The notes under the pieces are model-generated. The model saw nothing but the letters and a program-made list of their open reading frames with translations, was not told the DNA's origin and searched no databases. From Limnochorda pilosa (lineage in GTDB: Bacteria; Bacillota; Limnochordia; Limnochordales; Limnochordaceae): DNA of 64,000 bases. Below are positions 9,918-56,185 of this stretch, piece by piece (position 1 is the first letter of the stretch; each line of letters begins with the position of its first letter). Made by a program: the position numbers and the translations under genes. The stretch is from positions 3,658,001-3,722,000 of the forward strand of contig NZ_AP014924.1 in NCBI RefSeq assembly GCF_001544015.1, given 5' to 3'.

Positions 9918-11447
9918 ATGCGCTCATCCGACCGAGCGTTCGTTCGAGCCGACAACCTGGACGTGCTGCGGGAGCTTCCCGACGGCGCGTTCGACCTCGT
10001 CTACCTGGACCCGCCCTTCAACTCCAACCGGCGGTACGGGCTGGACCGCGGTCAACCGGATCGGGCGTTCCGCCGTGGCCGCCGCGCCGATGGTCCCTGG
10101 GGCCTGGCCTTCGACGACGCCTGGCGCTGGGACGAGGAGACGGCTGCCGGTTTTCACGGGCTGCTGCAACGGCTCCCCCCCGGTCCCCGGGAGCTCCTGG
10201 CCACCCTCCGCCAGGCTCTTGGCGCGGGCGACCTCCTGGCCTACCTGGCCATGATGGTCCCCCGTCTCGTGGAGCTCCACCGGGTCCTGGCACCCACGGG
10301 CTCCCTCTACCTCCACTGCGATCCCCAGGCCAGCCACTACCTGAAGCTTTTCCTGGACTCCATCTTCGGCGCCGATCGCTTCCGGCGCGAAATCGTCTGG
10401 CGAAGCGGCTGGGTGAGCGGATTCAAGAGCCGCGTGCCGAACTGGGTTCGCAACCACGACACCCTCCTCTACTACACGCGGGGGCCCCGCTTCGTCTTCA
10501 ACAAGGAGGCCGCCTACCAGCCCCACCCTGAGGGCTACCAAAGGCGGGGTGGGGGTGCGAACCCGCGGGGCGTGGCCCTGGACGACGTCTGGACCGACAT
10601 CTACTCCCCGTGGATCATGAGCTTCAGCAAGGAGAAGCTGGGCTATCCCACCCAGAAGCCCATGGCTCTCATGGAGCGGATCGTACGCGTCTCCACGAGA
10701 CCCGGCATGCGCGTCCTCGACCCCTTCGCCGGCGGGGGCGCGGCGCTGGTCGCCGCTGAGGCCATGGGACGGCGCTGGCTGGGCATCGACTCCACCCACC
10801 TGGCCACGGCCATGATCCGCTACCGGATGCTCTGGCGCTTCGGGCTGGATCGGAGTCGCTTCCCCGTGCACGGGGAACCCCACGACCTCAGCGCCGCGCG
10901 GGCCCTGGCCCGGAACGACCCGCTTCAGTTCGGCTGGTGGACCCTCTCCCTCGTCCACGCCCGGCCCTTGGGGGCGGGGAGGACGCAGGAGCCAGGAGCG
11001 GGTCCGCGCATCGAGGGTGCGCTGCCAGCGAGCGCAGGGGTTCTCGACGACGAGACCCCGCCGGCGCTCGCCCCCGGCTCCGCCGCCGAGATTCCGTGGG
11101 GGATGGAAGGCGGCCCGCCGTGGACGCTGGTGATCGTCCAGGCGGTACTACGGCCTGCGGACCTCCCGGACCTGGTCCAGAGGGCCCGGGAACTGGGGGC
11201 CCAGCGGGTGCTGGCCACGGCCCTCGAGCTGCCCGCAGGCGCCACCGCGGCGGCCGGGGCCGTGGCGGGTCAGGGACGCTTCGGGTGGGCAGCGCCGGAG
11301 GATGGGGTCCAGCTTGTGACCCTTGAGGACCTGCTCCGCCGCGACCTCACCCCGGCCCTGATCCAGCGGCCGCTGCCCCAGCTCCACCTTACACCGCAGC
11401 CCCAGGGCCCCCGCGGCCGTAAGGGCCGCCGCGCCGGGCCAACCTGA
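9918..11447 (+). CDS. Solitary beta-class DNA methyltransferase with a decayed nuclease domain
   Basis: A SAM-dependent N4-cytosine or N6-adenine methyltransferase of the beta class. The catalytic motif IV (DPPFNSN, about residues 34-40) comes first and the SAM-binding motif I (DPFAGGG, about 273-279) comes near the end of the catalytic part. Residues 155-248 are nearly the same as the methyltransferase-nuclease fusion at 53760-55214 (7 differences in 94), so the two should recognise the same site. After about residue 335 the protein still aligns with the fusion's nuclease domain (QFGWWTLSLVHARP; VTLEDLLRRDLTP). However, the Mrr-type GIDG...QVK motif is gone, with VIVQAVLR in its place. GGGGGTG precedes the ATG. 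No restriction gene is adjacent. Confidence 0.88.
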   Translation: MRSSDRAFVRADNLDVLRELPDGAFDLVYLDPPFNSNRRYGLDRGQPDRAFRRGRRADGPWGLAFDDAWRWDEETAAGFHGLLQRLPPGPRELLATLRQALGAGDLLAYLAMMVPRLVELHRVLAPTGSLYLHCDPQASHYLKLFLDSIFGADRFRREIVWRSGWVSGFKSRVPNWVRNHDTLLYYTRGPRFVFNKEAAYQPHPEGYQRRGGGANPRGVALDDVWTDIYSPWIMSFSKEKLGYPTQKPMALMERIVRVSTRPGMRVLDPFAGGGAALVAAEAMGRRWLGIDSTHLATAMIRYRMLWRFGLDRSRFPVHGEPHDLSAARALARNDPLQFGWWTLSLVHARPLGAGRTQEPGAGPRIEGALPASAGVLDDETPPALAPGSAAEIPWGMEGGPPWTLVIVQAVLRPADLPDLVQRARELGAQRVLATALELPAGATAAAGAVAGQGRFGWAAPEDGVQLVTLEDLLRRDLTPALIQRPLPQLHLTPQPQGPRGRKGRRAGPT

Positions 11448-53759: not shown

Positions 53760-55214
53760 TCACATCCCGAGCTGCCCCTGCTCGACCGGCCGGTCCTTAC
53801 TCGCTCGCTTCGCCCGTTGGAAAGTTGCCTCGGCAAGACGAGGGAACTCGAGCCGCGCGTGGCCCGCGAGCAGGTCCTCGATAGTGAGGATCTGGATCCT
53901 CGGGTATCGCTTCCCCGGCAAGGAGGGAGGCTCGTACAAACCTGCTGCTGCTGCCTCCTTCACCATCGGTTTGGTCGGCGCTTCAAGGGTGATGAAGGCA
54001 CCGATCGGGGCCTTCTCTCGCTCGAGCACACCCTTCAGGTCACGGATCTGCGAAGCTGTGACGTTGCCGCTCTTCACCTGGACGATGATGGTCTTCGCCT
54101 TCCCGGAGCCATCATCAAAGAAGTTGATGTAACCATCGATCCCGGTGTCGGCGCCCTTCTTCTTGTCGTGCGCTGGCCTGGCGTCGATCAGGCCAAGGGC
54201 CCACCACTCGAACTGGAAACGGCCATCCTTCTCGTCAAGCAGGGCCCGGGCATCTTCGACGGTGGTCGGCGCACCTAAGACCTCGTAGGGTGACAGCTCC
54301 TCGCTGAACGCGTCATGGAGTCGGTGCTTCATCAAGGCAATGGCAAGGTGGGTGATGTCGATCCCGATCCAGCGACGGTTCAACCGTTCGGCCACCGCGA
54401 CCGCGGTGCCGCAACCGCAGAATGGGTCGAGGACCACATCGCCCTCGTTACTGCTGACCTGGATGATACGCTCTAGGAGAGCCTCGGGCTTTTGGGTGGG
54501 GTAGCCCAGCTTCTCTCTGCTAAAGCTCATGATCCACGGGGAGTAGACGTCGGTCCAGACGTCGTCCAGGGCCACGCCCCGCGGGTTCGCGCCACCGCCC
54601 CTCCGCTGGTAGCCCTCAGGGTGGGGCTGATAAGCGGCCTCTTTGTTGAAGACGAACCGGGCCCCCCGCGTGTAGTAGAGGATGGTATCGTGGTTGCGGA
54701 TCCAGTTCGAGGCGCGACTCTTGAAACCGCTTACCCAACCGCTTCGCCAGACGATCTCCCGCCGGAAGCGCTCTGCGCCGAAGACAGCGTCCAGCAGGAG
54801 CTTGATGTAGTGGCTGGCAGTCGGGTCGCAGTGGAGGTAAAGGCTCCCTGTAGGCTTCAGCACTCGGTGAAGCTCCACGAGGCGGATGGACATCATGGTG
54901 AGGTAGGCCATCATATCATTCTGGCCGAGGAAGGCTCTGAGGGCCTGCAGGAGATTGGCCAGGTCCCTAGGCCCCTCGGTCACCACCTCACGGTAGGCCC
55001 TCTCGGATTCGAGCCCCCAATGCCACGTGTCCTCAAAGGCGGTGATTTGTGCCTGAGATGCTTCGCCCGATGGCTCCTTGAAGAGCACGTTGTAGGTGGC
55101 GTTCGAGTTGAACGGCGGGTCGAGGTAGATGAGGTCCACGGACTCGTCTGGGACGTGCTCCCGGAGGATCGTGAGGTTGTCGCCCAGGTAGAACTTGTTC
55201 ACCCAGCCGTCCAT
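53760..55214 (-). CDS. DNA methyltransferase fused to an Mrr-like nuclease domain (single-chain R-M)
   Basis: 484 residues. The N-terminal part is a beta-class N4/N6 methyltransferase: catalytic DPPFNSN at about residues 32-38 and SAM motif DPFCGCGTA at about 266-274, the latter followed by RWIGIDITHLA. After a hinge (QFEWWALGLIDARP) comes a PD-(D/E)xK domain of Mrr type: GIDGYINF near residue 356 and IIVQVKSG near 377 supply the Asp and Q-x-K. Modification and cleavage in one chain is the layout of self-contained restriction-modification enzymes. GGGAGGG lies 9 bases before the ATG. A near-identical specificity block occurs in the methyltransferase at 9918. Confidence 0.88.
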   Translation of the reverse strand: MDGWVNKFYLGDNLTILREHVPDESVDLIYLDPPFNSNATYNVLFKEPSGEASQAQITAFEDTWHWGLESERAYREVVTEGPRDLANLLQALRAFLGQNDMMAYLTMMSIRLVELHRVLKPTGSLYLHCDPTASHYIKLLLDAVFGAERFRREIVWRSGWVSGFKSRASNWIRNHDTILYYTRGARFVFNKEAAYQPHPEGYQRRGGGANPRGVALDDVWTDVYSPWIMSFSREKLGYPTQKPEALLERIIQVSSNEGDVVLDPFCGCGTAVAVAERLNRRWIGIDITHLAIALMKHRLHDAFSEELSPYEVLGAPTTVEDARALLDEKDGRFQFEWWALGLIDARPAHDKKKGADTGIDGYINFFDDGSGKAKTIIVQVKSGNVTASQIRDLKGVLEREKAPIGAFITLEAPTKPMVKEAAAAGLYEPPSLPGKRYPRIQILTIEDLLAGHARLEFPRLAEATFQRAKRASKDRPVEQGQLGM

Positions 55215-55312
55215 CCGTGACCGCCCTCCCGGAGGTAGGAATTGGCTACCGGGGGGCGAATTCCTGTTCCTTGCGGCGGACGAAACGGCCGGTCGGCCGG
55301 GGGGTGATACGG

Positions 55313-56185
55313 GTGAAGCGCGAGCAAGCCGAACAGATCCTGCTCTCCACTTACGACGCTGTCAAGAGCGGCCTGTCGGTCGAGGGTCCCAAACTCGACC
55401 TGAAGCGGCAATGGTGGAAGCTGCGCGGCGACGAGGACGAGTTCGCAAAGGACCTCTGTGCAATAGCTAACTCACCCGGCAACGCCGACGGGGTTATCAT
55501 CCTCGGCCTTGACAAGAGCGGCCAGGCATATGATGCTGGCGTTGAGACGACTGGTCTCGACGAAGCAGACATCCAGTCCAAGGCAAACGCCTTCATTGAA
55601 CCTCGTCTGCGCTGGGAACTGCATGAGTTCCAGATTGAGGGAAAACGCGTAGCCGTCATCGTGATCCCCAGGTCCGACTCGCGCCCGCACGTCGTGCGGA
55701 GGCACCGTGACCGAGAGAACTGCATCTTCATCAGGCGCGGGTCTCAGACGGGGCTGGCCGGACGGCGTGAACTGGACGAGATGTTCGGCAATCGATCGCC
55801 CGTGGCGGAACCAAAGCTCTTCATACACTCGTTCAGCCTGCCCGGGTACCCGACCAACACCGTGACCCTGGATTGCATCCTGATGACCGGGGAGAGTGCC
55901 GTCGTGGTCTCCCGCGGTTCTTGCACCATCAGGTTTCGCGACGAAACCGAGCAGCCTATCCCGATCATCAGGCTCTATAGCCACGACAGAGATGTTCTCA
56001 CCGACCCGAGCGACATCTTCCCAGCTGTCTTTCCCCCGAATAAGGTCATTCGATTCGAGCTGGAGGGCGGGCTGCGGTGGGACTCCTTGCACAAGGGTCA
56101 GCGATCCACGGCTGGCTTCTCTCTCCATGTCTCTCTCGACCGGCTAGAGGGTAGCCCACTTCGGACATCCACGGCTCTCAAGTAA
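55313..56185 (+). CDS. AlbA_2/Schlafen-like putative nucleic-acid-binding protein
   Basis: 290 residues. The N-terminal about 140 residues match the AlbA_2 (divergent AAA_4/Schlafen core) domain: EGPKLDLKRQWWKL, DEFAKDLCAIANSPGNADGVIILGLD, KRVAVIVIPRSDSRPHVVRR and CIFIRRGSQTGLAGRRELDEMF. The C-terminal half is beta-rich and unrecognised. I chose GTG 55313 with GGGGG eight bases upstream; GTG 55304 is also in frame. It is divergent from the methyltransferase-nuclease gene (98 bp apart). Codon use is less GC-biased than in the core genes, suggesting acquired DNA. A defence-associated role is inferred from position only. Confidence 0.75.
   Translation: MKREQAEQILLSTYDAVKSGLSVEGPKLDLKRQWWKLRGDEDEFAKDLCAIANSPGNADGVIILGLDKSGQAYDAGVETTGLDEADIQSKANAFIEPRLRWELHEFQIEGKRVAVIVIPRSDSRPHVVRRHRDRENCIFIRRGSQTGLAGRRELDEMFGNRSPVAEPKLFIHSFSLPGYPTNTVTLDCILMTGESAVVVSRGSCTIRFRDETEQPIPIIRLYSHDRDVLTDPSDIFPAVFPPNKVIRFELEGGLRWDSLHKGQRSTAGFSLHVSLDRLEGSPLRTSTALK

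Follow-up and report, generated by a model that had tools for sequence, protein, structure and literature searches.

A probable old transfer of a target-recognition module between a solitary methyltransferase and a methyltransferase–Mrr fusion on one Limnochorda pilosa chromosome

In Helicobacter pylori, target-recognition domains move between Type III mod genes that are not orthologous (Furuta and Kobayashi 2012, cited by PMC3983042 and PMC7379913); the movement takes place within and across species, between enzymes of beta-class type and by recombination in conserved flanking motifs. Single-chain restriction enzymes with a companion methyltransferase are also on record, as in the Type IIG enzymes Eco57I, BpmI, BpuSI and BseRI, where the two are known to act on the same site (PMC3874165). 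In Metamycoplasma hominis, a solitary and a restriction-linked methyltransferase, the DAM1/DAM2 pair, both methylate GATC; the shared motif was measured, and module transfer is not described in the available part of that report (PMC10305163). Recognition-domain movement among Type III enzymes and companion methyltransferases are already known, and the combination described below is a variant of them.

The window that we analysed, a 64,000-nucleotide stretch of the L. pilosa chromosome (NZ_AP014924.1, positions 3,658,001 to 3,722,000), encodes a solitary methyltransferase (SOL) and a methyltransferase–Mrr fusion (FUS); the orthologue of SOL in a congener (genome G001) is referred to as ORT. As in H. 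pylori, a recognition domain appears to have moved between non-orthologous genes, but the partners there are Type III mods, whereas here they are a methyltransferase–Mrr fusion and a probably nuclease-dead solitary enzyme on a single chromosome. As in the Type IIG systems, one chain is predicted both to modify and to cut and a separate methyltransferase is present; action on the same site is known there and expected here. Type IIG enzymes are, however, gamma-class with an N-terminal nuclease (PMC3874165), whereas FUS has the beta-class motif order and a C-terminal Mrr domain and falls outside the Type IIG definition, and unlike the Type IIG companions, SOL lies 42 kb from FUS and is not co-inherited with it. 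The M. hominis pair likewise combines a solitary with a restriction-associated enzyme, but its common motif was measured, whereas for SOL and FUS it is the module transfer that can be seen in the sequences and a common motif is predicted. What is added, judging from sequence comparison, is the beta-class methyltransferase–Mrr family as a further arena for recognition-domain movement, together with a candidate donor–recipient pair of solitary and restriction enzymes on one chromosome, in which the solitary lineage would be the donor.

SOL (9918..11447, plus strand; 509 aa) is a beta-class N6_N4 DNA methyltransferase (PF01555, E 2.7e-33) with a probable nuclease-dead C-terminal domain, and FUS (53760..55214, minus strand; 484 aa) is a methyltransferase–Mrr single-chain fusion (PF01555, E 4e-41; PF22722, E 1.5e-9; PF04471 Mrr_cat, E 3e-8). 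Both proteins carry DPPF (motif IV) before the recognition region and DPFxGxG (motif I) after it, the order that together with PF01555 marks beta-class amino DNA methyltransferases; in SOL, motif IV reads LDPPF, motif I reads DPFAGGG and both are intact. The closest folds are those of M.BceJIV, CcrM, M.MboIIA and M.RsrI. The preliminary description had pointed to a shared specificity block in two proteins that are otherwise more diverged, and its coordinates and differences proved exact on re-alignment: residues 155-248 of SOL (10380..10661, plus strand) and residues 150-243 of FUS (54486..54767, minus strand) align without gaps and differ at 7 of 94 residues (87/94 matching, identity 0.926) and at 30 of 282 bases. 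Both of the identical DNA runs that it mentioned were located, one of 42 bases (10557-10598 in SOL, 54549-54590 in FUS) and, one mismatch further on, one of 25 bases (10600-10624 and 54523-54547). Identity is not uniform along the two proteins, rising from 0.38 over residues 1-104 to 0.76 over residues 105-154 and 0.93 in the block, then falling to 0.45 over residues 249-360 and 0.30 at the C-terminus; over the rest of the methyltransferase it is ∼46%.

Close relatives of FUS are widespread in Bacteria and Archaea, with at least 580 of 593 pattern-matching genome stretches encoding one among the matches listed. In a family alignment of 88 members (3,828 pairs), variability is highest in the block: two members paired at random have an identity of 0.20-0.35 over most of it and usually of 0.5-0.8 in the flanking methyltransferase, and the motifs on either side, LYLHCDP and YPTQKP, are conserved family-wide. 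The block coincides with this hypervariable region and lies between motif IV and motif I, where target recognition had been placed at the outset. In this alignment, the SOL–FUS pair (block 0.90 versus backbone 0.46) has the largest block-minus-backbone excess of all 3,828 pairs, and its likeness in the block is far greater than chance would give.

Because enzymes with nearly the same backbone can carry different blocks, the region is best described, from the sequences, as an exchangeable target-recognition module, a cassette that is replaced while the conserved flanks on either side stay in place. The enzymes of Streptomyces phages Triste (L224) and Werner (L225) are nearly the same on both sides, including the nuclease, with an unrelated segment in the block. 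Fusions encoded in the same genome have backbones that are 94-98% identical and modules that are ∼30% identical (L179/L180 of G485; L148/L149 of G457; L144 of G456), and tandem fusions (L009/G456) show the same; all of these, the phage pair included, are independent swaps of the one segment. G485 is Fimbriimonadales KatS3mg018, and another relative is carried by Marinitoga phage MPV1. In Chloroflexota genomes G462 and G464, family members L207, L210, L212 and L219 carry an HNH nuclease at the C-terminus in place of the Mrr domain; within this family, therefore, module and nuclease can both be exchanged.

The module class of SOL and FUS is also present in fusions L011, L020, L034 and L071 and in Dehalococcoidia L146, but block identity for the other carriers of the class reaches only about 55-69%, compared with 93% for SOL and FUS. 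It is found on another backbone in several species of one genus of Bacillota (family f29; L092-L101, L104), and the similarity extends to a Type III-like Mod (L102). Searches with the block alone gave no confirmed relative among viral contigs and phages and only distant matches (36-38%) among plasmids. The idea that a GGGANP insertion is unique to SOL, ORT and FUS was dropped, as similar loops occur in the ungapped sequences of L011 and L020.

The nuclease domain of FUS (53763..54182, minus strand) is a Mrr-like PD-(D/E)XK domain in which D356, D360 and K381 are present, and the matching residues (D..D and VK) are kept in 85 of 85 other aligned fusions. The predicted model (mean pLDDT 82) has the order strand-strand-helix-strand-helix-strand, and the Mrr_cat match (3e-8) is that of the C-terminal Mrr-type domain of a methyltransferase–Mrr single-chain restriction-modification enzyme. 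We infer from the sequence that FUS cleaves DNA. The gene belongs to a tract that adjoins a tRNA-Lys gene and has a GC content of 64%, whereas the remainder of the window has 71%; this fits outside acquisition of the fusion. In the segment 52458-64000, the tRNA-Lys gene is followed by this tract, in which long ORFs are few; it may have been acquired and may extend past the window end. Divergent from FUS is a Schlafen/AlbA_2-domain gene (55217-56185, plus strand; PF04326, 4.4e-17; weak PADLOC match to PDC-S50), for which there was no match in congener G001.

In the SOL C-terminal domain (10959..11444, plus strand), the residues corresponding to FUS D356, D360 and K381 are not conserved; by strand position, RIEG stands for GIDG and VQAV for VQVK, leaving SOL without the D..D and VK catalytic residues of Mrr-type enzymes. 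A domain search found no nuclease family match in SOL. Its predicted strand and helix order is nevertheless that of the Mrr-type domain, but profile comparison with the Mrr family was weak (probability 3.8%, E 0.011); the last ∼150 residues are probably a dead form of the nuclease domain of the fusion. The initial view of SOL as a solitary enzyme accordingly needs qualification: it is a methyltransferase with no match to a nuclease family, but not simply a free one, since it has ∼150 extra C-terminal residues. ORT is 72% identical to SOL and likewise lacks the nuclease residues, and the C-terminal domain is still constrained, as dN/dS between the orthologues is ∼0.32. SOL lies near homologues of the neighbouring genes of the congener, and the ORT neighbourhood holds several of the same genes; this synteny and the GC content support the proposal that the solitary copy is core-like. 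The flanking ORFs were judged by sequence reading to encode a putative peroxiredoxin-like protein and a membrane protein. With no adjacent cognate nuclease gene and persistence in the lineage, SOL has the properties of an orphan methyltransferase. FUS was not found in G001, a draft that is 86% complete.

Block and backbone give conflicting trees. In the backbone tree, FUS is nested among fusions with unrelated modules and SOL with ORT forms a separate, distant branch, a SOL + FUS clade being rejected with an AU p of 2.8e-44; in the block tree, SOL + FUS is recovered with support of 86-89. Such a conflict, with conserved motif flanks, is the pattern by which movement of a target-recognition domain between non-orthologous genes is recognized. 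A segment scan placed the strongest signal at SOL residues 151-251 (10370-10670), with a score reached by none of 20,000 permutations. Gene conversion or recombination of the module, raised in the preliminary description, is well supported by the tree conflict, the swaps in other members and the comparison with the congener.

Within the block, the data are suggestive of a younger common ancestor for SOL and FUS than for SOL and ORT. Bases unique to ORT and bases unique to SOL stand at 31:11 inside the block and 107:94 outside (Fisher p 0.016), and because this skew is confined to the block it points to closeness of SOL and FUS without a general rate difference. Four-fold sites in the block are identical at 31/40 positions between SOL and FUS and at 22/39 between SOL and ORT (p 0.058). 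The transfer may be older than the divergence of the two congeners; its date relative to that split is uncertain because a SOL + ORT sister pair is not firmly rejected for the block (AU p = 0.086) and a conversion test on silent codons only was not significant (13:8 versus 23:33, p 0.13). Between SOL and FUS, the block has a dN of 0.033 and a dS of 0.489. The transfer is therefore old and not a fresh copy, and the resulting dN/dS of ∼0.07 indicates that both copies have been under purifying selection since, in support of the suggestion that selection has kept the same target.

The best interpretation of these results, and one that we consider likely, is an old module transfer from the lineage of SOL to an incoming fusion, held by purifying selection, with both enzymes acting on the same or an overlapping site. 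SOL would be a vertically inherited methyltransferase of the genus whose C-terminal domain is probably nuclease-dead, and FUS a single-chain restriction-modification enzyme joining a beta-class amino methyltransferase to a C-terminal Mrr-type nuclease. Long ago, recombination in the conserved motifs on either side would have given a FUS-type gene of this lineage the module carried by SOL or by a gene very closely related to SOL, and purifying selection since then would have left the module almost unchanged in both genes. The direction from SOL to FUS is the one that the distribution of modules favours: ORT has the same module (87% identity) and FUS was not found in its genome, which indicates that the SOL lineage held the module independently, and the nearest backbone relatives of FUS carry other modules, so that transfer from the SOL lineage to FUS takes one event and the reverse takes one extra.

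That reverse course, in which FUS brought the module along and the SOL module was replaced by conversion, retargeting SOL to match the incoming nuclease, we regard as improbable. Fusions can evidently import this module class, as its four other fusion carriers attest, but the possession of the module by ORT speaks against it, and a block tree that pairs FUS with L011 is rejected (p 0.035); one that unites FUS with L011 and L020 is not (p 0.09). Still less probable is a third source, from which each gene independently got the same module class, with strong selection on specificity residues preserving the likeness. The class is indeed widespread, from Bacillota solitary enzymes and the Dehalococcoidia member to the Type III-like Mod, and block protein identity is under strong purifying selection; yet the other carriers remain far less alike in the block than SOL and FUS, which are closer in DNA as well, at the four-fold sites. 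That the likeness is due to chance, or to general conservation of catalytic sequence, is favoured only by the family-wide retention of the LYLHCDP and YPTQKP flanks, and we give it practically no credence: the interior of the block is where the family is least conserved, and general conservation is ruled out by the 88-member profile.

The remaining alternative concerns not the transfer from the SOL lineage but its consequence for specificity. In the CcrM–DNA complex, Loop-2B reads G1, A2 and A3, and Loop-45 and Loop-6E read T4/C5, with further contacts to the target adenine and to the backbone (PMC6787082). Loop-45 and Loop-6E map inside the shared block and Loop-2B maps outside it; its equivalents, the loops after motif IV, span about residues 31-67 of SOL (10008..10118, plus strand) and about residues 32-62 of FUS (55029..55121, minus strand) and are strongly divergent (identity 0.28 at FUS 37-61), so equal specificity is not guaranteed, a point absent from the preliminary description. 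The block might then determine the site only in part, the remainder being set by the divergent loop, giving overlapping but different sites and no protection by SOL against FUS. We think this rather unlikely, although it carries more weight than the other alternatives. Among members of the fusion family whose blocks are unrelated, the loop keeps a random-pair identity of 0.54-0.73 and is thus fairly conserved, which argues against it as the seat of specificity differences in the family. SOL and FUS probably methylate one site.

When a single recognition module serves both cutting and methylating, the two activities must change together, and the host chromosome must not be cut at the new site. 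This difficulty would disappear if a solitary methyltransferase carrying that module were already resident. Under the preferred reading of a transfer from the SOL lineage, the shared site would already be methylated by SOL whenever FUS is expressed, acquired or lost, and SOL methylation may protect the chromosome against FUS and make the fusion safe to carry, acquire and lose. More generally, resident solitary methyltransferases could serve as specificity donors, an incoming single-chain enzyme that captures their module gaining a target already methylated all over the chromosome and a safe installation; we offer this only tentatively, as a somewhat doubtful generalization. If it is true, module capture removes the lethal step of specificity change.

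The genome of Polyangium fumosum (G477) encodes a fusion (L198) and a nuclease-less relative (L199) with a module identity of 0.76 versus 0.46 in the backbone, which suggests that module sharing between solitary and fusion enzymes recurs. Pairing is not a rule: when five solitary members without a nuclease, from other genomes that bear fusions, were compared with the fusions retrieved for each genome, a partner with the same module was present for L199 but for none of L146, L192, L215 and L189, the last of which has a stop codon within its reading frame. In an enrichment test, nuclease-minus members shared a module with nuclease-plus members of their genome in 2/60 versus 0/131 cases (p 0.098); the 'inactive' class included methyltransferase–HNH fusions, and the result is not used as proof. 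The L. pilosa window and the Polyangium case provide a concrete two-gene system for testing the protection idea, and the natural module-swap pairs (Triste/Werner, L009 and G485) can be used to map residues to the bases that they read. The L. pilosa genome encodes another related solitary methyltransferase (L003; C1, about 172.3-173.8 kb; 504 aa), whose recognition region resembles that of L082 and whose C-terminus is by eye without nuclease residues.
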